From a bacterium (GTDB lineage Bacteria > UBP14 > UBA6098 > JAFGQG01): 20,031 bases of DNA. Below the pieces are notes generated by a model that saw only the letters and a list, made by a program, of their open reading frames with translations, had not been told where the DNA came from and did not search any database. Where the stretch lies: NCBI GenBank assembly GCA_016930435.1, contig JAFGGQ010000127.1, positions 1-20,031 of the forward strand, in the 5' to 3' direction. This document shows positions 9,835-20,031 of this stretch, piece after piece. Numbering within the stretch: the first letter of the stretch is position 1; each line of letters starts with the position of its first letter. The translations under genes and the position numbers were made by a program.

Positions 9835-10164
9835 ATGGAAAAAGAAAGATTTAAGCTGCTCGAAGAAAGAGCTAAGATATTTAAGGCGCTGGCTCATCCC
9901 ACACGGCTGCTTATCGTGGAAGAATTGAGCCAGAGAAAGCAGTGTGTCTGTGAGATTACGGATAAAGTCGGGGCCGATATCTCCACCGTATCCAAGCATT
10001 TAAGCATTCTCAGGAATTCCGGTATAATAGATGATGAAAAGCATGGCACCATGATGATTTACAACCTTAGGATGCCCTGTGTACTGAATTTCTTTGAATG
10101 TATAGAGAAGGTGATCATTGACCGTGCTGAGTCCCAGATGAAAATTGCCCAATGCTGCAAGTGA
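9835..10164 (+). CDS. arsR: ArsR/SmtB-family metalloregulator
   Basis: Winged-helix repressor of 109 residues, expected to sit on the ars promoter and leave when As(III) or another thiophilic ion binds. The fold signature is FKALAHPTRLLIVEEL, and the recognition helix is ISTVSKHLSILRNSGII (49-65). The wing contains GTMMIYNL. The Cys37-Val-Cys39 pair in QCVCEIT corresponds to the alpha-3 CVC site of classical ArsR sensors. Extra cysteines occur at 82, 89, 107 and 108, so a C-terminal site or a different third ligand is possible. It is the first gene of an eight-gene plus-strand cluster of thiol and transport proteins, which supports an arsenic inducer. Confidence 0.93.
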   Translation: MEKERFKLLEERAKIFKALAHPTRLLIVEELSQRKQCVCEITDKVGADISTVSKHLSILRNSGIIDDEKHGTMMIYNLRMPCVLNFFECIEKVIIDRAESQMKIAQCCK

Positions 10165-10214
10165 TGTTCGTGTGAAAAGAAAACCTTAAACAAATTAACT
10201 AATGGAGTTTTATT

Positions 10215-10688
10215 ATGAAATCGTTGATTTTACCAGTACTGTTTATAATGTTGGTCAGTATAAATCTTGTTTTAGCGGAGGAAGATGTTTCAACGGGGTC
10301 CCTGGAGACCGTGCCGGCCAACTATGAAGAGGCTTTCGAGACGGGGAAGCCGGTGGTGGTCTTTTTCTACACAACCAAGGCCTGTAATTGCGTTAAAAAG
10401 CGCTGTCTGGATGCCAAAGCAAGTTTTGAATCATATTATGATCCGGTTCAGAATGATGTTGTTTATCTAACCATAAATGATGCTGATAATCCTGAATTAG
10501 GCAAGAAATTCAAGGTCCGATCATTCCCTACAGTACTCATTTTTAATACAGCGAAGGAAGAGTTATCCAGACTGCTTTCCTCCCAGATATCCAGGGATAA
10601 TATTGATAAGGTGTTAGCGGAATTAGAGCCTTGTGCCGGTGAAGATGGTGATTACCATGGTAAGGGGAAAGAACACCATTATGAATAG
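10215..10688 (+). CDS. Exported thioredoxin-like protein with Cys-x-Cys site
   Basis: A 157-residue protein with an N-terminal signal sequence (hydrophobic 4-20, likely cut after Ala21). A thioredoxin fold follows: strand KPVVVFFYTT, then KACNCVKKRC, and the cis-proline loop SFPTVLIF (Pro105). Where classical thioredoxins have CxxC, it has Cys57-Asn-Cys59 plus Cys64, and a lone Cys140. The C-terminus is rich in Gly, Asp, His and Glu. The three close thiols could act in disulfide exchange or bind a thiophilic ion such as As(III); both are inference. It follows arsR by 50 bp and precedes the permease by 41 bp. It may be a periplasmic partner of the downstream ArsF/ArsG-like proteins. The exact family is not recognised. 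Confidence 0.75.
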   Translation: MKSLILPVLFIMLVSINLVLAEEDVSTGSLETVPANYEEAFETGKPVVVFFYTTKACNCVKKRCLDAKASFESYYDPVQNDVVYLTINDADNPELGKKFKVRSFPTVLIFNTAKEELSRLLSSQISRDNIDKVLAELEPCAGEDGDYHGKGKEHHYE

Positions 10689-10729
10689 TCTGTCCCTGAT
10701 AAAATCTGGTCTTTTAGAAGAGGAGTAGC

Positions 10730-12031
10730 ATGGTTTCCTGGAAAACTGAATGGAAAAAGCTGCTGTTGATGGTGTTAGTATTTTTGGGGGCATTTTATCT
10801 CCCCCTCGGGAATATCCGTTTTGACAATGCCCTTTTTGAGGCGTTTGGGTTGGTCAAAGACTATGCCCGTGAGCATGTTCTGCTATGCCTGATCCCTGCC
10901 TTTTTCATCGCCGGCGCCATTGGAGTTTTTATCAGTCAGGCTTCGGTGATGAAGTATCTGGGTGCCCGGGCAAATAAGATCATAGCTTACGGGGTGGCTT
11001 CCGTTTCGGGTTCTATATTGGCGGTATGTTCCTGTACGGTTCTTCCTCTTTTTGCCGGAATCTATAAAATGGGCGCGGGATTGGGCCCTGCAACAACTTT
11101 TCTCTATGCCGGCCCTGCTATAAATGTACTGGCGATCGTCCTTACTGCCCGGGTACTGGGAGTAGAAATGGGCATCGCCCGTGCACTCGGGGCTATATTG
11201 TTCAGCATTATCATCGGATTATTAATGCATTTGGCTTTCCGGAAGGAAGAACTCAAAAAGGCACAGGTGCAAATGGCCCTGCCGGAAGCCGAAACCACAC
11301 GGCCCCTTTGGCAGAATGCTCTTTATTTTTTGGCTATGGTGGCTATCCTGATATTCGCAAATTGGGGCAAGCCGGCGGCTCAATCCGGAATATGGCATAC
11401 TATCTATTCATGGAAATGGGCAGTGACCGGAATCTGGGCACTCTTCCTGGGATTCACGTTGATCGTCTGGTTTAAGCTCAAATGGTGGAAAATACTGCTG
11501 GTCGCCCTTCCCACTGCGTTGCTTGCCTGGGGACTTAGGGGTCAACCGATGATACCTTTTACCGTTGGTATTATTGGATTATCCGTAGTTTTAAATACTA
11601 CAGATGGTGAAGGACGGGAATGGTTCTCCAGCACCTGGGGTTTTGCCAAACAAATTCTGCCCCTGCTTCTTTTCGGGGTTTTGATCGCCGGTTTTCTGCT
11701 GGGCAGACCCGGGCATGAAGGGATTATCCCCTCATCCTGGGTAAGCGCCGCTGTAGGAGGTAACTCCCTGTGGGCCAATCTTTTCGCCTCGGTTGTAGGG
11801 GCCTTCATGTACTTTGCTACACTTACCGAGGTACCTATCCTGCAGGGCCTGCTGGGAAGTGGGATGGGTAAAGGCCCGGCATTGGCTTTGTTGCTGGCTG
11901 GACCCGCGCTGTCATTGCCCAATATGCTCGTGATCAGAAGCGTGATGGGTACTAAAAAAACGGTGGTATTTGTAATATTGGTAATTGTAATGGCAACAAT
12001 ATCCGGAATGTTTTACGGCACTTTTTTTTAA
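10730..12031 (+). CDS. PF03773 (ArsP_1/DUF318) family permease, putative arsenical exporter
   Basis: Polytopic membrane protein of 433 residues. The family includes ArsP, which exports trivalent organoarsenicals. The N-terminal half holds a membrane-embedded VCSCTVLPLFAGI with Cys100 and Cys102, then GAGLGPATTFLYAGPAIN (115-132). The C-terminal half carries a second copy of that loop, GSGMGKGPALALLLAGPALS (377-396), so the protein is a two-fold internal repeat, as expected for such transporters. A hydrophilic linker lies near 171-190. Its stop overlaps the ribosome site of arsC. It is the only clear efflux protein in the first half of the cluster, as no ArsB or Acr3 is present. Substrate (As(III), organoarsenical or another thiophile) is inferred from context. 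Confidence 0.85.
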   Translation: MVSWKTEWKKLLLMVLVFLGAFYLPLGNIRFDNALFEAFGLVKDYAREHVLLCLIPAFFIAGAIGVFISQASVMKYLGARANKIIAYGVASVSGSILAVCSCTVLPLFAGIYKMGAGLGPATTFLYAGPAINVLAIVLTARVLGVEMGIARALGAILFSIIIGLLMHLAFRKEELKKAQVQMALPEAETTRPLWQNALYFLAMVAILIFANWGKPAAQSGIWHTIYSWKWAVTGIWALFLGFTLIVWFKLKWWKILLVALPTALLAWGLRGQPMIPFTVGIIGLSVVLNTTDGEGREWFSSTWGFAKQILPLLLFGVLIAGFLLGRPGHEGIIPSSWVSAAVGGNSLWANLFASVVGAFMYFATLTEVPILQGLLGSGMGKGPALALLLAGPALSLPNMLVIRSVMGTKKTVVFVILVIVMATISGMFYGTFF

Positions 12032-12043
12032 GGAGATATAATC

Positions 12044-12466
12044 TTGAAAAAAGCTAAAGTACTCTTTATCTGCAGTGGTAATTCGGCAAGGAGTCAGATG
12101 GGAGAAGCCTTGCTGAGGAAAATCGGGGGTGAATACTTCGAGGCCTATAGCGCAGGTTTAGAGCCTAAAGGTATCAATCCACTTACTCTGAAAGTGATGA
12201 AGGAAATCGGGATGGATATTTCCAACCAGCGATCCAAAAAGATCGATGAATATTTGGGGAAGGTCCATTTTGGTTATGTGATAACTACCTGTGCTGAAGC
12301 CGAAGAACAATGTCCTATTTTCCCTGGAGTGACTAAACGTTATTATTGGCCTTTAGAAGACCCCGCCTCTTTTTCGGGAACCGAAGAGGAGAAACTTACT
12401 GCATTCAGAAAAGTTAGAGACCAGATCAGAAAAAAAGTACAGGATTTTATCGAAGAACACCGATAG
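12044..12466 (+). CDS. arsC: Arsenate reductase ArsC, thioredoxin-coupled (LMW-PTPase fold)
   Basis: Reduces arsenate to arsenite in the cytoplasm using a three-cysteine relay regenerated by thioredoxin. The P-loop is Cys10-SGNSA-Arg16-Ser, with the CX5R pattern. Resolving cysteines Cys83 and Cys90 in CAEAEEQCP have the same 7-residue spacing as Cys82 and Cys89 of Staphylococcus aureus ArsC, and YYWPLEDPA matches the family's Asp-Pro loop. The second P-loop cysteine of the S. aureus enzyme (Cys15) is Ala here. Length 140 is typical. It starts with TTG at 12044, supported by AAGGAG at 12030-12035. Its product, arsenite, would need an exporter; the adjacent permease is the nearest candidate. 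Confidence 0.93.
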   Translation: MKKAKVLFICSGNSARSQMGEALLRKIGGEYFEAYSAGLEPKGINPLTLKVMKEIGMDISNQRSKKIDEYLGKVHFGYVITTCAEAEEQCPIFPGVTKRYYWPLEDPASFSGTEEEKLTAFRKVRDQIRKKVQDFIEEHR

Positions 12467-12472
12467 CAATGT

Positions 12473-12500
12473 TTTCTATAGCATGATTATGCTATAGAAA
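12473..12500. promoter_or_regulatory. Perfect 12-bp inverted repeat between arsC and arsF
   Basis: TTTCTATAGCAT and ATGCTATAGAAA are a perfect 12-bp inverted repeat around a 4-nt centre (GATT), starting 6 bp after the arsC stop. No T-run follows, so it is not a standard terminator. It could be an operator for a dimeric regulator, or an RNA hairpin that separates the two halves of the cluster. The remaining gap to 12593 is AT-rich, with no clear promoter. Confidence 0.5.
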
Positions 12501-12593
12501 TCGGAGAACAGTTTCCAAAAAGAAATGATTAAATCAAATATTCTATACACCTGAAATTTTTATATTAACTGCAGTGGGATAAATAAAAAAAAG

Positions 12594-13103
12594 ATGTCGA
12601 AATCAAACTACATAAAATTGTTTAAAAAGATAACGGCCCTCAGTTTGTTGGTTTTTGTAATTATCAGTGTTGGATTTGCTGTCTATGATATAGTATCCGG
12701 AAGCAATCCGGGTCTTTACCCTCATGGAGAAGCAAAAGCAGACATCCCCCGGTTCGACAGTCCTATGCTCGTAGCTACCTATTTTTACGGGAACGTTCGC
12801 TGCAAAGCATGCAGGACTATTGAGAGATACTCCGAGGAAGCAGTAAGCAAGTTTTATGATGATCAGATCAAATCGGGAAGCTTCAAATGGCGGATTATCA
12901 ACATGGATGAACCCCAAAACGAACATTTCATTATCAATTACAATTTGCCTACCAAATCATTGGTTATCAGCGTTTGGCAAAACGGGAAAGAAGTGGAGTG
13001 GAAGGTACTTGATGATGTTTGGGGTCTATATAATAATAAAACCGAGTTTTTTAATTATCTTCGGGAAGAGATAGATTTACTGGCAGGAAAATATGGTCTC
13101 TGA
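12594..13103 (+). CDS. arsF: ArsF-family membrane-anchored thioredoxin-like protein
   Basis: A 169-residue protein with one N-terminal membrane anchor (about 12-30) and an extracytoplasmic thioredoxin-like domain. Its motif YFYGNVRCKACRTIE has Cys70 and Cys73 in CxxC, followed by IINMDEPQNEHFIINYNLPT with the cis-proline region and KEVEWKVLDDVW. This pattern matches what databases call the ArsF family (named for a subunit linked to reduction of nitrophenyl arsenicals together with ArsE and ArsG). The last 11 bp overlap arsG, so translation is coupled. The start at 12594 has only a weak AG-rich ribosome site. The biochemical role of ArsF is known only through that family assignment. Confidence 0.8.
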   Translation: MSKSNYIKLFKKITALSLLVFVIISVGFAVYDIVSGSNPGLYPHGEAKADIPRFDSPMLVATYFYGNVRCKACRTIERYSEEAVSKFYDDQIKSGSFKWRIINMDEPQNEHFIINYNLPTKSLVISVWQNGKEVEWKVLDDVWGLYNNKTEFFNYLREEIDLLAGKYGL

Positions 13104-13785
13104 TCTATGGTTAGGAATAGTATCAGCGCTCTGGCTGGGGATCCTGACATCTATCAGCCCTTGCCCGTTAGCCACTAATATCGCCGCTATTTCATTTATT
13201 AGCAAGAGAACCGGAAAGGTCACTCATACTTTGCTATCAGGAATATTATATACCCTTGGAAGGGTTCTATCTTATGGGTTGGTAGCATTTATAATTGCTG
13301 CAAGCGCGCTATCAGTGTCCAGCATCTCCAATTTTCTGCAGTATTATGTTAATCTATTTTTGGGTCCCATTTTAATTCTGGTGGGAATGATATTGACCAG
13401 ACTGCTAAGATTGAAAATAAAGGGGATTCAGAATACTGCAAAAATCCAGGTTTGGGCGGAAAAGGCGGGAATATTGGGCGCAGTTCTATTGGGGATGATA
13501 TTCGCGCTTGCTTTCTGTCCCATTTCCGCCGCCCTCTTTTTCGGAACCCTTATCCCCCTCTCCCTGAAATACCAATCCTCACTTATACTACCCGCAAGTT
13601 ATGGCATTGGAACTGCTATCCCGGTGATCGGATTCACTATTCTGCTGGCAATCAGTTCACGCCTTATGGCAAGGATGTTCAATAAGATCAATTCATTCGA
13701 ACGAGGCGCTCAATTTGCTACCGGAATAATATTTATTCTCATTGGGATATACCTGAGTCTAAAATATATCTATCATTTATTATGA
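13093..13785 (+). CDS. arsG: ArsG-family, DsbD/CcdA-like membrane protein
   Basis: A 230-residue protein with six apparent membrane segments. Two Cys-Pro sites sit in membrane segments: TSISPCPLATNIAA (Cys24) in the first and LAFCPISAALFFGTLIP (Cys142) in the fourth. This paired Cys-Pro arrangement is the signature of the CcdA/DsbD electron-conduit fold. The family next to ArsF is named ArsG and described as an aromatic-arsenical efflux permease. The cysteine layout makes an alternative plausible: it may carry reducing equivalents across the membrane to ArsF rather than export arsenic. It overlaps arsF by 11 bp; the start ATG lies inside the arsF end. Confidence 0.82.
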   Translation: MVSDLWLGIVSALWLGILTSISPCPLATNIAAISFISKRTGKVTHTLLSGILYTLGRVLSYGLVAFIIAASALSVSSISNFLQYYVNLFLGPILILVGMILTRLLRLKIKGIQNTAKIQVWAEKAGILGAVLLGMIFALAFCPISAALFFGTLIPLSLKYQSSLILPASYGIGTAIPVIGFTILLAISSRLMARMFNKINSFERGAQFATGIIFILIGIYLSLKYIYHLL

Positions 13786-13816
13786 TAATTGTCAATTCTT
13801 AATGAGGGAGTCTGTG

Positions 13817-14140
13817 ATGAAAATGTTAAAGGAGTTCTTTCCGGAATTCATTAAGGGGCTGGACGATATCGATGAACTTTACCGAAGTAAAATGACTATT
13901 GATGAAAAGACTTACCAGTTTATCTGCTTTGCTTTATCCATAAAGGCTCGTTCTAAACCCTGTGTGTTAAAGCATTTTGCAGGGGCTTTGGCGGCCGGCG
14001 CAACGGTGCAGGAGTTGGCTTTTATCCTTGCACTGGTTATGAGAGAAGCCGCTGGCGCGGACGACTGCTGGACACACGAAGCGATCGGAGAATGGAAGGA
14101 AATCCTTCTGGGTAATATTCAGTTTAAATGCCAATCATAG
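13817..14140 (+). CDS. AhpD-like / carboxymuconolactone decarboxylase-family protein
   Basis: Small all-alpha protein of about 107 residues in the CMD/AhpD family. The core helix reads KARSKPCVLKHFAGALAAGATVQEL. Typical AhpD proteins have CxxC there for peroxidase or disulfide chemistry. Here the first Cys is Ser and only the second remains, with the catalytic His still four residues later, so the usual redox pair is broken. A further Cys follows in GADDCW and one near the C-terminus. ATG at 13802 is in frame, but GAGGGAG at 13804-13810 sits 6 nt before the ATG at 13817, which I prefer. CMD proteins are often seen near ars genes; its role here is unknown. Confidence 0.82.
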   Translation: MKMLKEFFPEFIKGLDDIDELYRSKMTIDEKTYQFICFALSIKARSKPCVLKHFAGALAAGATVQELAFILALVMREAAGADDCWTHEAIGEWKEILLGNIQFKCQS

Positions 14141-14150
14141 GAGCGATGAT

Positions 14151-14387
14151 ATGAAGAGGATACAAATTCTTGGAACGGGTTGTCCAAAATGTGAAGAATT
14201 AGCGCGAATTGTCCAAAAGGTGATCGAAGAGCTTGATGGTGATTATCAAGTTGAGAAAATTACCGATATCAATGACATCCTCAGTTTTGGAGTGATGATG
14301 ACCCCGTCCCTGGTCGTGGATGGCCAGGTGAAATTGGTGGGTAAAATTCCCCTTCCTGAAGAGATTAAATCTTTACTTCTGGAATAA
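14151..14387 (+). CDS. arsE: ArsE-like mini-thioredoxin (glutaredoxin-like CPxC protein)
   Basis: A 78-residue cytoplasmic thioredoxin-fold protein of the TM0996-like small redox family: MKRIQILGTGCPKCEELA with Cys11 and Cys14, and the cis-proline loop MTPSLVVDGQV (Pro52). No signal peptide. It begins 10 bp after the CMD gene with AGGAG upstream. Proteins of this family commonly accompany PF03773 permeases, and one is the ArsE of arsEFG sets. Assignment to ArsE rests on size, motif and the ArsF/ArsG neighbours. It may pass electrons to ArsC, to the ArsG conduit or to the permease cysteines; this is inference. Last gene of the cluster. Confidence 0.78.
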   Translation: MKRIQILGTGCPKCEELARIVQKVIEELDGDYQVEKITDINDILSFGVMMTPSLVVDGQVKLVGKIPLPEEIKSLLLE

Positions 14388-14873: not shown

Positions 14874-17800
14874 ATGCGAAAATTATTGATAGGGCTGTTG
14901 CTGTTTACATTCATTATCATGGTCAGTGTTTCCCTGGCGGATGTTCCTCGAATTCTGAAGTACCAGGCCAAACTCACCGACCTTGATGGCGTTGGCATTA
15001 ATGACACTCTTTCAATGACCTTCCGGATTTGCAATTCTCCGTTTGGCCCCGAAATTCTATGGTGGGAAGAGATCCATGATGTTGTTGTCACTAAAGGTCT
15101 TTTTGATGTTGAACTGGGTTGGTATAATACCATTGATCTGGATTTTTCGGGACCGGAATACTGGTTGGAGATCCAAATGGAATGTGATGTTCTTTCCCCT
15201 CGCCAGAGGATCGTTTCCGAAGTTTTTGCTATCCGGTCTATATATGCGGATACGGCGGAATATGCCCGTGCCGCCGGAGGATATTCGGATACTTCCGGTG
15301 TAGCTGATACGGCTAATTACTCCCATTTTTCGGGTTTTGCCTGGAATGTCCCCTGTGACACGATTATGAAGTGTATCAATTGGGACACCCTACAGGCTTA
15401 TGTGGATACTACTGATACGGTTACCTATGCTATGGTTGCCTTTATTTCGGATACGGCGACCTTTGCCTGGCATGCCTATTACTCTGATACTACCGGAGCG
15501 GTTGCCGGTCATGATGTTTACGGCGCGGTAGATTATGCCTTCTGGGCCGATAGTGCCCGTGAAGCTACAGAGGCTTATCATTCTATCTATGCCGATACCG
15601 CTGATTTCGCCTGGGCTGCTGGCGGTTTTGCGGACACCACTGCCTGGGCATGGTTTGCGGATAGCGCTTTCTACGCCTGGTGGTCCCAATGGGCGGACAG
15701 CGCACTCTGGGCCGGTTGGGCTACCTTTGCGGATACCGCTTTTTATGCCTGGTGGTCCCAATGGGCGGACAGCGCCTGGTGGGCTTACCAATCACATTAT
15801 GCCGATACCGCTGATTTCGCCTGGACCGCTGGCGGTTTTGCGGATACAGCAGCCTGGGCACGGTTTGCCGATAGCGCTTTCAATGCCTGGTGGTCCCAAT
15901 GGGCCGATAGCGCCCTCTGGGCCGAATGGGCTACTTTCGCAGATACCGCGTTCTTTACCTGGTGGTCCGGTCATGCCGATACCGCTATCTTTTCCTGGTG
16001 GTCCCAACATTCCCAATGGGCCGACAGCGCACTCTGGACCCGTTGGGCTACCTATGCTGATACCGCCTTCTTTACCTGGTGGTCAGGTTTTGCCGATACC
16101 GCTATCTTCGCCTGGTTTGCCGACCGCGCTGACAGCGCCTATTACGCACACTATTCTTGTTTCGCCCGTCACGCCGACAGTGCATGGATAGCCTACATGG
16201 CCGATTATGCAGATAGCGCTAATTATGCCTGGTGGTCCACTTACGCCGATACCAGTTTCTTCACCTGGTTCACAGCCTGGGCCGAAAGCGCTCACTGGGC
16301 CGATAGCGCTATTGTAGCCCTGAAAGCCCGTTATGCGGATACCGCTTTCTTTGCCTTCTATGCCGAATTGGCTGGCGCCGCTGAATATGCCTATCACGCT
16401 TACTGGTCGGACTACGCAGAAAGCAGTAACTATGCCTGGTGGTCCACTTATGCTGATACCGCCTTCTTTGTCTGGTGGGCAGAACATGCCAGCTATGCGG
16501 ATAGCGCCGGACAGGCATTCTGGTCCGCATACGCCGATACTGCACTCTTCGCCTGGTTTGCCGCCCGTGCCGAAAGCGCACTATACGCCCAATGGTCAGT
16601 ATGGGCAGATACCGCTTATTATAGCTGGTTTGCTGAACATGCCCATTATGCTGATACCGCCTTCTTTGCCTGGCTTACAGAACACGCATATTATGCGGAT
16701 AGCGCCGGACAGGCATTCTGGTCCGCATACGCCGATAGCGCCTTCCACGCCCAATGGTCAGTATGGGCAGATACCGCTTATTTTGCCTGGTGGGCACAGT
16801 ATGCCCATTACGCCGATAGCGCCGGACACGCCTGGTGGTCCACTTACTCGGATACATCTTACTTTATTAACGGACAGAACGTACACGGACCAGTAGATAG
16901 CGCCTTATTCGCTTATTATGCTGCTCATGCTGAAAGCGCTTATTTCGCATATTGGGCTGCCTACGCCGATACCGCTATGTGGGCACATAACGCCGGACAC
17001 GCCTGGTGGGCCACATACTCTGATACTACTTACTACATCGATTGGTCCAATATCGATAACGTGCCCGATACTATGTACCTTGACAAGATATACGGAACCG
17101 TTGCCGGATCATTATTTATTGATACAGTATTGGTAACCCCGGAAGTAGCCCTGGATTCCATCGAAGCCTGGCATAATGAGATGATCCTGATCAAAGATTC
17201 TACTACTATACTGAATTGGCTGCAGGTGGAAGGTTGCGGAATGTTCCAGAGCGGAATGGCTGGTACCCCAACCTACCTGATGCAGGAAGGTTTTGAAGGG
17301 ACATTTCTCCCCGCCGGCTGGACCCAGGAATACGTGACTAATGCTGTAGATTGGACTCAAACAAGCTCTCCGGGTGGATCCGGTACTCCCTTTGAAGGAA
17401 GCTACATTGCACAGCTCCGGGAGAGTGGTTATAATAACAGCCGCACCCGACTGGTTACCCCCGATTTTGACCTTACTACAGGCCCCAGCCCAACCTTAAG
17501 CTTCTGGTACCGTTGTCCCTATTGGTCTCCAGATTCCGATAGCCTTAATATCTATTATAAAACCTCCGCAGCCGGCCCCTGGACATGGTTATATTCATGT
17601 GCTACCCCTCAGGATAGCTGGGCTAATATAGTACTACCATTACCATCTCCCTCAGGTGATTATTACATTGCATTTGAGGGTTACTTGCATTGGGGTTATG
17701 GTGCTCAGGTAGATTGGGTAGAGCTCTTCTTCCTCTCCCCAAGCACTATTGCCGAGGTCAACATCTGCGACGGTAGCGTAATTCTGGACAATGACCTTAT

Positions 17801-20031
17801 AATTAACGGCGGCATCGATGACGGCACCGGTTTTGGTGCTCCCGGACAGGTGCTTACCTCCGATGGCTCCGATGTTTACTGGTCCGACCCGGCCGACTCC
17901 GTTCTCTATGCTCATGAAGCCGGACATGCCCAGGAAGCGGATCATGCTGCCCAAGCTGATTCTGCACTTTGGGCCGATGAAGCCGGTCATGCCATATATG
18001 CAGATACCGCATTCTACGCAGAGATCCCCGATTCACTCTTCCTTAGAATTATTCATGGTACCGAAAACGGAACACTCTATGTGGATACCGTCCTCGCAGT
18101 CCCTGAAGTCGCACTGGATTCCATGGAAGCCTGGAACGATGGCGTAATTAAAATAAAGGACTTTACTTATTTTACAGATAGTATATTGGTTGAATACGAT
18201 GTCAGGATAAGACGCGACCTGTTCGTTCAGCGGGACATCTGGGTGGGACGCAATGTAACAATAGATGATTCCCTTACCGTTCTGGGTCCCTCTGTCCTGG
18301 ACGACGATGTGGATATATATGGCGATGTATTTATCGATGAAAATCTTACCGTTGATGAAAACCTCTTCGTCAATGGATATGCCTATATCGAAGATAGCCT
18401 GATTGTAAATGGGAACATCTGGGCCGATACCGTATTCGCGCTGGTGATGTACGCCGATACTGCGGCCTGGGCAGACAGTACCGAATACTGCTTCGAGTCC
18501 GGTCATGCACTCTTTGCTGATACCGCCAGTTTTGCCTGGAAGATCCCCTGCGATTCGGTAATGGCCTGCATCCCCTGGGATACCCTCGATTATTATTATA
18601 TGAAAACAGATACTGTGAATTATGCCTGGTATTCCTTCAATGCCGGATTTGCAGACACCGCTGGTTATGCCTTCGATGCCATGCATTCACATATAGCGGA
18701 CACTGCCATTTACGCTATGGATGCCTTTCATGCTCATTTAGCCGACAGTGCTATGTGGGCTTTTCAATCATTCTGGTCCCATTATGCGGATACAGCATTT
18801 ATTGCCTTGGATGCTATGCATGCTCATATTGCTGATAGTGCTATGTGGGCGTTCCAGGCACTCTTCTCCCATTATGCTGACTCAGCACTTTGGGCGATGG
18901 ATGCTATGCATGCTCATATTGCTGATAGCGCTATGTGGGCTTTTCAATCATTCTGGTCCCATTATGCGGATACAGCATTTTTTGCCAGTCAGGCCCTACA
19001 TGCTCATATTGCTGATAGTGCTATGTGGGCGTTCCAGGCACTCTTTTCCCATTACGCCGACTCAGCACTTTGGGCGATGGGTGCTCATATTGCTGATAGT
19101 GCCGGGTGGGCATTCTTATCTCATTACGCCGACTCAGCACTTTGGGCGATGGATGCCCAGTTATCCGATACCGCTTTATTTGCCTGGAAGATCCCCTGCG
19201 ACTCTGTAATGGCCTGCATCAACTGGGATACCCTGAATTATTATTACCTTAAAACGGATACGGTCGATTACTCCTGGTACGCATTCGATGCATATCACAC
19301 CATTTATTCCGATACCGCATCATGGGCTACCGGCGGGTATGTAGATACGGCGATCTTTGCGGATACCGCCTTCTGGTCCTTCTGGTCCCAGTACGCTGAC
19401 AGCGCTTCCTGGGTTGAAGAAGCATTCCGATCTATCTATTCGGATACAACCTATTATATTAACTGGAATAATATAGATGATATACCAGATTCATTATTTC
19501 TAAGGGTCATTCACGGCACTGCCAACGGAACCCTCTACGTGGATACCGTGCTGGCGGTTCCCGAAGTAGCCCTGGATTCCATCGAAGCCTGGAACAGCGA
19601 ATGGATCAAAATCAAGGATTCACTCCTGATTAATAATTACCTCTTTGTTAATGACAATGCCTTTTTCGAAGACGACGTAATCATTAATGATTCATTGAAT
19701 GTACAGGGTGGAGCTGCTTTCGACGATGATGTTTATATTCAACAGAACCTGGAAGTAAATGGCAATCTGCAGGTCAATGTAAATGCAGATATTAGCGGTT
19801 ATGTCTATGTAGAAGATAGTGTTGTAGTAGATGGCAATATCTATGCGGATACGGTATTCGCACTGGTGATGTACGCCGATACCGCAGCCTGGGCAGACAG
19901 CACCGAATATTGCTTCGAGTCCGGTCATGCGCTCTTCGCGGACACCGCCAGTTTTGCCTGGAAGATCCCCTGCGACTCTGTAATGGCCTGCATCGACTGG
20001 GATACACTTAATTACTATTACCTTAAAACGG
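14874..20031 (+). CDS. Giant secreted Ala/aromatic triplet-repeat protein (3' end outside window)
   Basis: One frame stays open for 1,719 codons from ATG 14874 to the window edge. AAAGGAG (14861-14867) precedes the start. Residues 1-22 are a signal peptide (cleavage after SLA). Residues 23-120 are a fibre-style N-terminal domain (PRILKYQAKLTDLDG, TLSMTFRICN, QRIVSEVFAIR) like those leading many large environmental surface proteins. From residue 124 come long repeats of the type YADTAFYAWWSQWADSA, with a small residue at every third position. About 806-953 is a choice-of-anchor J/cleaved-adhesin-like beta-sandwich, followed by GAPGQVLTSDGSDVYWSDP. Beta-solenoid-like stretches, three PEVALDS modules and four PCDxxMxC modules follow. 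It is probably a surface or released fibre or adhesin; function unknown. Lys and Arg are rare in the repeats, while Trp, Tyr, Phe, Ala and Asp dominate. Confidence 0.9.
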   Translation, partial: MRKLLIGLLLFTFIIMVSVSLADVPRILKYQAKLTDLDGVGINDTLSMTFRICNSPFGPEILWWEEIHDVVVTKGLFDVELGWYNTIDLDFSGPEYWLEIQMECDVLSPRQRIVSEVFAIRSIYADTAEYARAAGGYSDTSGVADTANYSHFSGFAWNVPCDTIMKCINWDTLQAYVDTTDTVTYAMVAFISDTATFAWHAYYSDTTGAVAGHDVYGAVDYAFWADSAREATEAYHSIYADTADFAWAAGGFADTTAWAWFADSAFYAWWSQWADSALWAGWATFADTAFYAWWSQWADSAWWAYQSHYADTADFAWTAGGFADTAAWARFADSAFNAWWSQWADSALWAEWATFADTAFFTWWSGHADTAIFSWWSQHSQWADSALWTRWATYADTAFFTWWSGFADTAIFAWFADRADSAYYAHYSCFARHADSAWIAYMADYADSANYAWWSTYADTSFFTWFTAWAESAHWADSAIVALKARYADTAFFAFYAELAGAAEYAYHAYWSDYAESSNYAWWSTYADTAFFVWWAEHASYADSAGQAFWSAYADTALFAWFAARAESALYAQWSVWADTAYYSWFAEHAHYADTAFFAWLTEHAYYADSAGQAFWSAYADSAFHAQWSVWADTAYFAWWAQYAHYADSAGHAWWSTYSDTSYFINGQNVHGPVDSALFAYYAAHAESAYFAYWAAYADTAMWAHNAGHAWWATYSDTTYYIDWSNIDNVPDTMYLDKIYGTVAGSLFIDTVLVTPEVALDSIEAWHNEMILIKDSTTILNWLQVEGCGMFQSGMAGTPTYLMQEGFEGTFLPAGWTQEYVTNAVDWTQTSSPGGSGTPFEGSYIAQLRESGYNNSRTRLVTPDFDLTTGPSPTLSFWYRCPYWSPDSDSLNIYYKTSAAGPWTWLYSCATPQDSWANIVLPLPSPSGDYYIAFEGYLHWGYGAQVDWVELFFLSPSTIAEVNICDGSVILDNDLIINGGIDDGTGFGAPGQVLTSDGSDVYWSDPADSVLYAHEAGHAQEADHAAQADSALWADEAGHAIYADTAFYAEIPDSLFLRIIHGTENGTLYVDTVLAVPEVALDSMEAWNDGVIKIKDFTYFTDSILVEYDVRIRRDLFVQRDIWVGRNVTIDDSLTVLGPSVLDDDVDIYGDVFIDENLTVDENLFVNGYAYIEDSLIVNGNIWADTVFALVMYADTAAWADSTEYCFESGHALFADTASFAWKIPCDSVMACIPWDTLDYYYMKTDTVNYAWYSFNAGFADTAGYAFDAMHSHIADTAIYAMDAFHAHLADSAMWAFQSFWSHYADTAFIALDAMHAHIADSAMWAFQALFSHYADSALWAMDAMHAHIADSAMWAFQSFWSHYADTAFFASQALHAHIADSAMWAFQALFSHYADSALWAMGAHIADSAGWAFLSHYADSALWAMDAQLSDTALFAWKIPCDSVMACINWDTLNYYYLKTDTVDYSWYAFDAYHTIYSDTASWATGGYVDTAIFADTAFWSFWSQYADSASWVEEAFRSIYSDTTYYINWNNIDDIPDSLFLRVIHGTANGTLYVDTVLAVPEVALDSIEAWNSEWIKIKDSLLINNYLFVNDNAFFEDDVIINDSLNVQGGAAFDDDVYIQQNLEVNGNLQVNVNADISGYVYVEDSVVVDGNIYADTVFALVMYADTAAWADSTEYCFESGHALFADTASFAWKIPCDSVMACIDWDTLNYYYLKT
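15240..17030 (+). repeat. Dodecapeptide (36-bp) repeat array built on xxA triplets
   Basis: About 600 residues of degenerate repeats with the core A-D-[TS]-A-x-[FWY]-A-x-W-[SA]-x-[FWY]. Distances between successive AD[TS]A cores are mostly 12 residues, with others of 6, 9, 15 and 27, so nearly all indels are whole triplets. The only breaks seen are two 13-residue steps at GGFADT (about residues 249 and 323). Some DNA copies are near identical: about 47 bp starting at 16494 recur 198 bp later. CCTGGTGGTCCCAATGGG recurs several times. Confidence 0.9.
15351..15374 (+). repeat. Cys module PCDxxMxC, copy 1 of 4
   Basis: PCDTIMKC (Cys161 and Cys167) followed by INWDTL. The same module, preceded by FAWK or FAWN and followed by WDTL, recurs with PCDSVMAC at 18546-18569, 19194-19217 and 19968-19991. 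The protein has very few other cysteines, so each module probably forms a small disulfide loop or a metal site (inference). Confidence 0.75.
17031..17171 (+). repeat. PEVALDS module, copy 1 of 3
   Basis: A conserved segment of about 45 residues reading YYIDWSNIDNVPD, GT..G.L..DTVL, PEVALDSIEAW. It recurs at 18021-18134 (EIPDSLFLRIIHG, PEVALDSMEAW) and 19452-19592 (YYINWNNIDDIPD, PEVALDSIEAW). Each copy follows an Ala-triplet array and precedes a beta-rich stretch, so it marks a boundary between two structural regions. Confidence 0.8.
17289..17732 (+). other. Choice-of-anchor J / cleaved-adhesin-like domain inside the giant protein
   Basis: About 148 residues begin GFEGTFLPAGWTQ, continue with SYIAQLRESGYNNSRTRLVTP and LSFWYRCPYW, and end near GAQVDWVELFF. 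The order 'GFEG.fPpGW', 'RLvTP.fDL', 'L.FWY', 'vDwVel' is typical of this jelly-roll domain, found on extracellular proteins of Bacteroidota-like bacteria and often binding glycan or protein. It interrupts the repeats only once in the visible part. Confidence 0.75.
18201..18434 (+). repeat. Beta-solenoid-like short repeats, copy 1
   Basis: About 78 residues of alternating hydrophobic and polar positions with recurring short units such as LFVQRDIWVGRNVTIDDSL, DDVDIYGDVFIDENLTV and DSLIVNGNI. The 6- to 8-residue rhythm resembles beta-helical fibre shafts. A related stretch lies at 19617-19856 (YLFVNDNAFFEDDVIINDSL, NLEVNGNLQVN). Both copies lead directly into ADTVFALVMYADTAAW. Confidence 0.65.
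18432..20031 (+). repeat. Super-repeat of about 474 residues (1,422 bp)
   Basis: The string VFALVMYADTAAWADSTEY at 18432 recurs at 19854, and the following FESGHALFADTASFAWK and PCDSVMAC modules keep the same 1,422-bp offset. The PDSLFLR segment recurs with a 1,458-bp offset (18030 and 19488). The 36-bp difference equals one 12-residue repeat. The second copy runs off the right edge, so more copies may follow. Confidence 0.85.
18729..19139 (+). repeat. 90-bp tandem repeats in A-B-A-B order
   Basis: Units beginning HAH[IL]ADSAMWAF start at 18729, 18819, 18909 and 18999, exactly 90 bp (30 residues) apart, with a shortened fifth unit near 19080. Units 1 and 3 share QSFWSHYADTAF, while units 2 and 4 share QALFSHYADSALWAM. 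The 2/4 pair is nearly identical in DNA, pointing to a recent 180-bp duplication. Each 30-residue unit is two 15-residue (five-triplet) steps. Confidence 0.88.

Follow-up and report, generated by a model that had tools for sequence, protein, structure and literature searches.

Strict alanine-triplet arrays in a MAT-like modular fiber protein of an uncultured bacterium

The stretch of DNA analyzed here (the window) is a contig of exactly 20,031 bases, on which a forward-strand reading frame remains open until it runs off the contig end. The product of this gene is a very long secreted fiber protein of an uncultured bacterium, and its parts are listed in Table 1. Upstream of the fiber gene, at 9835-14387, translations read by eye resembled an arsenic- or thiol-handling cluster, with genes for an ArsR-type regulator, thioredoxin-like proteins, a permease, an ArsC-like phosphatase, a CcdA-like protein, and a CMD-like protein.

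Table 1. Parts of the fiber gene and its product (nucleotide positions in the window; aa, residues of the product)
Feature	Residues (aa)	Position	Strand	Basis or remark
Whole open reading frame, at least 1719 codons		14874..20031	+	C-terminus lost at contig end
Signal peptide, MRKLLIGLLLFTFIIMVSVSLA	1-22	14874..14939	+	Read from translation
N-terminal β-sandwich, remote relative of MAT N-terminal domain	23-123	14940..15242	+	NF053851 match in homologues; AlphaFold
Ala-triplet run, 23 triplets	251-319	15624..15830	+	[AST] position-3 count
Strict Ala-triplet array, 70 triplets	321-530	15834..16463	+	Position-3 count, periodicity
Strict Ala-triplet array, 43 triplets	534-662	16473..16859	+	Position-3 count, periodicity
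Ala-triplet run, 15 triplets	675-719	16896..17030	+	Position-3 count
MAM/choice-of-anchor J domain, mid-fiber	803-935	17280..17678	+	PF00629, NF038128
Ala-triplet run, 13 triplets	1011-1049	17904..18020	+	Position-3 count
β-Helix-like module	1073-1190	18090..18443	+	Weak matches to left-handed β-helix families
Second strict Ala-triplet array, 63 triplets	1249-1437	18618..19184	+	Position-3 count, periodicity
90-bp tandem repeats inside second strict array		18696-19085	+	DNA repeats
Second β-helix-like module	1573-1661	19590..19856	+	Weak bactofilin match

The MAM/choice-of-anchor J domain between the triplet runs matched both PF00629 (E = 1e-7) and NF038128 (E = 8.9e-12), each above the curated cut-off, and it sits in mid-fiber rather than at the tip. 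A two-cysteine module, PCD[ST][IV]M.CI.WDTL, occurs four times in the protein (15345-15390, 18546-18590, 19194-19235, and near 20000). These modules adjoin triplet runs and may be small disulfide-bonded or cross-linked nodes of the fiber.

A first-pass annotation of this DNA had claimed that a small residue falls at every third position over hundreds of residues, and the counts bore this out. Ala, Ser, or Thr was unbroken at position 3 for 70, 43, 23, and 15 consecutive triplets within 15240-17030, the range given for the strict grammar, and for 63 further triplets in the second strict array. At position 3 of aa 323 to 662 we counted 87 Ala, 20 Ser, 6 Thr, and 1 Val residues. The range itself needed adjusting: it was right overall, but aa 123 to 250 are interrupted and shift phase, so the strict part begins at about aa 250, and the grammar also resumes downstream. 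Fourier analysis, which the annotation had put forward as the check, gave an Ala peak of 62.2 at a period of exactly 3.00 over aa 123 to 719, far above the highest value, 10.8, that any of 2000 shuffles reached at the periods tested. Aromatic residues and Asp also peaked at 3.00 in this segment, with a weaker peak at 12. Over aa 323 to 662, the Ala power reached 104 at a period of 3.0 and stayed under 0.5 at periods of 3.5, 3.67, 5, 6, and 7, which agrees with the earlier judgment that neither a heptad coiled coil nor a pentapeptide or hexapeptide solenoid suits the array.

The finer claims about the grammar stood in part. An aromatic residue before Ala is a preference and not a rule, since Trp, Tyr, or Phe occupied position 2 in 58% of the triplets of aa 336 to 660; position 1 was most often Asp or Trp. 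The marker D[TS][AS], said to recur at every fourth triplet, does have 12 as its commonest spacing (21 cases), but a spacing of 15, every fifth triplet, is nearly tied (18 cases), and spacings of 6, 9, 18, 21, and 24 also occur. That the markers stay in phase was fully upheld: 50 of the 54 spacings of up to 45 residues were multiples of 3 (P = 9e-20), as were 107 of 111 in paralogues from the same genome and class-level relatives, whose array matches were about 35 to 50% identical. Insertions and deletions in the window protein and in its relatives are of whole triplets, and the triplet was thus correctly named as the smallest unit.

The long-range triplet grammar is real and under selection. 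Internal copies of 70, 60, 30, and 39 residues, together with a duplicated cassette, gave pN/pS values of 0.06 to 0.34 when compared with one another. The Ala residues at position 3 use all four Ala codons, and Ala/Ser exchanges occur there between copies. Because the copies differ mostly silently and all four codons are used, it is the protein pattern that is selected, and the arrays are not a simple DNA expansion; the low pN/pS values and the spacings kept in relatives likewise make the triplet a protein-level constraint. We considered whether the arrays might nevertheless be disordered low-complexity spacers in which triplets are kept solely by repeat expansion in the DNA. The gene does contain tandem DNA repeats with periods of 36 to 210 bp, each divisible by 9 or by 3, and disorder would agree with the low confidence of the monomer model described below. 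However, in-frame expansion preserves the reading frame but no grammar of three residues, relatives that use other residues have kept the grammar, selection between the copies is purifying even as Ala and Ser exchange at position 3, and an abundance of aromatic residues such as that at position 2 is not what disordered linkers show. We therefore regard a disordered spacer as improbable.

The N-terminal domain, a β-sandwich of about 110 residues with an AlphaFold pLDDT mostly of 90 or more over aa 22 to 110, places the protein near a known class of fibers. For mosaic adhesive trimer (MAT) proteins of Bdellovibrio, NCBIfam has an N-terminal domain model, NF053851, with a curated cut-off of 60 bits. 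This model matched the N-terminal domain of the window protein alone weakly (E = 1.5e-4) and 18 of the 19 homologues scanned (best E = 1.4e-10); since every score lay below the cut-off, we call the domain a remote relative and not a proven MAT member. A MAT_N-type domain was present in all 17 genomes of the class that we searched and in none of 14 well-known control genomes. When its structure was used as a query, no match in the PDB had an E value below 1e-3, VIA-align gave Z scores of at most 6.8, within the range of common sandwich arrangements, and the best viral structure match (E = 5.5e-4) was an unnamed protein.

Bdellovibrio bacteriovorus HD100 has 21 MATs, all with a β-rich domain of about 130 aa after the signal peptide; trimeric β-helices are among the MAT fiber tips, and in Bd2133 a "stalk-like linear peptide," AAGAAT, separates trimeric domains (PMC10769870). 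The window protein resembles these proteins in having a signal peptide followed by a β-rich N-terminal domain that is remotely related in sequence, and in being long and modular with β-helix-like parts. As in MATs, it also belongs to a large paralogue set with a shared N terminus and diverse C termini: the genome holds about 20 N-terminal-domain paralogues (20 matches), whose open reading frames differ in length and in downstream modules. It departs from MATs in its sub-cut-off N-terminal domain and in its MAM/choice-of-anchor J domain in mid-chain, and there is no sign of predation here. The C-terminal part, in which a trimerization domain or an adhesive tip such as the S74 peptidase of MATs would be expected, would lie past the contig end at 20031. 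The short linear Ala-rich stalk of Bd2133 also has a counterpart, but here the Ala triplets extend over hundreds of residues. In several paralogues and relatives the N-terminal domain leads directly into short triplet runs. Runs outside the window protein are up to 37 triplets long, and its 70 are the extreme. The protein is, in our assessment, a MAT-like modular surface fiber.

The window protein shares its grammar with others: several paralogues and relatives have short versions, and long ones are present in cyanophages as well as other viruses. Among phage records, tblastn found Synechococcus phage B23 gp324, in which triplets of the GIATFATTAGYAATAG type extend over about 900 residues and which lies near an annotated tail fiber gene, and S-SRM01 gp333, which adjoins a long tail fiber gene and carries the annotation of a baseplate wedge subunit. 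Like the window protein, these fiber-region proteins of Kyanoviridae cyanophages carry long arrays of triplets ending in Ala or Ser, in phase for up to about 67 triplets and with an aromatic residue or Ile/Thr at position 2. They differ from it in that no MAT_N domain was seen in them and in that position 1 is Gly, Thr, or Ala there and Asp or an aromatic residue here. The similarity between the arrays is weak (E = 5e-4) and may be convergent.

We also searched viral contigs for series of codons in which each third one encodes Ala, requiring 14 such Ala codons in succession, nine bases apart. This returned fiber-like proteins with up to 103 strict triplets, in a list that is not a census because unrelated Ala-rich proteins, many of them helical or frame-shadow proteins, came back alongside them. 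Three of the seven viral proteins tested matched tail fiber PHROGs (L155, 8e-25; L130, 3e-17; L202, 2e-13). The comparison with phage tail fibers made in the first-pass annotation was therefore apt, since tail fiber proteins carry arrays of the same grammar. The viral protein with 103 strict xxA triplets (L199, 350-2776) has almost no aromatic residues and is rich in Asn, Asp, Lys, and Thr, so the triplet grammar does not need aromatics; the array of a second viral protein, L211, likewise keeps its triplets with few of them. The aromatic stacking proposed in the first-pass annotation is a conjecture.

Other searches returned little beyond these groups. Scanning for the pattern YAD[ST]AxYAD[ST]A revealed short in-phase segments in Crocinitomix, Zixiibacteriota, and metagenome-assembled genomes, and the pattern also matched proteins of Actinobacteria and others that are no fibers. 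Protein scans of genome contigs and viral contigs with the array gave no match, a probable cause being that arrays diverge too quickly to share exact peptide words. Neither the array nor its profile nor related arrays had a credible sequence match in the PDB; a hit of spt5 (8qsz) to a cyanophage-like array (E = 2.7e-6) falls on a nonapeptide repeat, and we dismissed it as low-complexity convergence. The Plasmodium histidine-rich protein family (PF05403) scored 37.3 bits against the array at 15876-16983, short of its 45.8-bit cut-off; the score is driven by Ala/His triplets, and the likeness is probably convergent. A literature search found no description of Ala-triplet fiber stalks.

What fold the arrays adopt must be judged against several known repeat systems. 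Over aa 323 to 662, a hexapeptide left-handed β-helix or pentapeptide solenoid was rejected because the power at periods 5 and 6 was at most 0.3, and a Pfam search of the array returned no solenoid match. An AlphaFold monomer model of the array had a pLDDT of 31, a further point against a solenoid that folds as a monomer. The model was otherwise uninformative and gave no support to the new fiber architecture suggested in the first-pass annotation. So low a pLDDT is compatible with an obligate oligomer and equally with disorder. The low-confidence model was helical, which would suit an Ala/Ser-rich trimeric α-helical coiled coil like the PCoil or Phage_fiber segments of side tail fibers; PCoil segments also read Ala-X-X-Ala/Ser-X-X-Ser, and they trimerize (PMC3368898). 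Those segments, however, are heptad based and differ in length by multiples of seven (PMC3368898). The indels of the array do not come in sevens: 2 of its 54 spacings are multiples of 7, as opposed to 50 that are multiples of 3, and it has almost no power at 3.5 or 7 and few helix formers. A coiled coil is accordingly very improbable.

In aa 323 to 662, the x positions of the triplets have much Trp, Tyr, Phe, Thr, Ser, Val, and Ile (0.49 of all residues) and few helix formers (0.09). This is in keeping with a β-structured trimeric stalk, such as an intertwined three-stranded β-helix or β-prism like that of T4 gp5, to which each chain would give short strands and in which triplets would be half-rungs or corners. 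The adjoining β-helix-like modules and the trimeric β-helices at MAT tips point the same way. Against this, the mixture of marker spacings leaves no fixed rung length, and a strand that alternates sides every two residues does not produce a strict period of 3. We consider a β-structured stalk unlikely, though it deserves more weight than a coiled coil.

An α-helix has 3.6 residues per turn and a β-strand has 2, so neither can hold one face over 70 triplets. This is possible for a strand that makes one turn in three residues, either as a three-fold screw of its own or in a three-chain rope, and because the triplet grammar is also found in phage tail fibers, the stalk is probably three-chain. 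A true collagen triple helix was rejected for aa 323 to 662, which have no Gly at position 3 and no Pro. Replacement of Gly by Ala destabilizes the collagen helix and the arrays have no Pro, so the geometry of the stalk must differ from that of collagen. The collagen-like phage fiber protein EPclA shares the triplet grammar and has a trimeric stalk between globular domains (PMC3368898), but its position 3 is Gly, which never occurs there in our strict arrays, and Pro is absent here. Glycine-rich polyproline II bundles, as in the phage S16 tail tip and the snow flea antifreeze protein, also have a three-residue periodicity, which comes from a three-fold helical strand (PMC13243192); unlike the arrays, with their Ala/Ser and aromatic residues, they are Gly rich and folded within one chain.

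Taken by analogy with MATs and phage relatives, from which the trimer, the extended strand, and the adhesin role are drawn, the reading that we favor, and think somewhat more probable than all others together, is a MAT-like surface adhesin that forms trimers and has an exceptionally long stalk of Ala triplets, made of three extended chains with the small residue at the axis. We infer a surface location, with the N-terminal β-sandwich anchoring the fiber at the cell. The secreted protein would then be built like MAT proteins and phage tail fibers: long stalks would space out the β-helix-like modules and the embedded MAM/choice-of-anchor J domain, and a C-terminal tip, beyond the contig end, would bind the target. 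Three extended chains would lie parallel in the stalk around a common axis, each making a turn every three residues. Each triplet would point its small residue toward that axis, the place of Gly in collagen, and the other two positions would cover the outside, often with an aromatic residue at position 2 and Asp or an aromatic residue at position 1. Single triplets could be gained or lost without a break in register, and stalk length would consequently evolve in steps of three residues. More tentatively, and as a possibility on which we would not yet rely, the arrays could form a glycine-free, proline-free three-chain helix, an analogue of collagen with Ala/Ser axial and aromatics outside, used by bacterial surface fibers and phage tail fibers and present in no solved structure yet.

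Among proteins built of small-residue triplets, the structures known are mainly those of collagen and Gly-rich polyproline II bundles. Here the grammar occurs with Ala, in the absence of Pro and of third-place Gly. It does so in an adhesin-like family, the N-terminal domain of which is in every genome searched of the class, and, whether independently or by exchange, also in phage tail fibers. As far as we searched, and going by sequence likeness, this stalk type seems to be shared with phage fibers, and a solved structure does not appear to exist. Should the array fold as a trimeric stalk, it would make a simple rod adjustable in length, one triplet per step, would explain many low-complexity fiber segments now called hypothetical, and would offer a designable scaffold.

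Another contig may hold a paralogue of the fiber gene or its lost C terminus. This contig (C149; L057 5713-8232) ends within a similar open frame, with a similar form of the two-cysteine module, GIGT-type repeats, and a C-terminal domain, and it has the sole other copy of the terminal module, at 73% identity.
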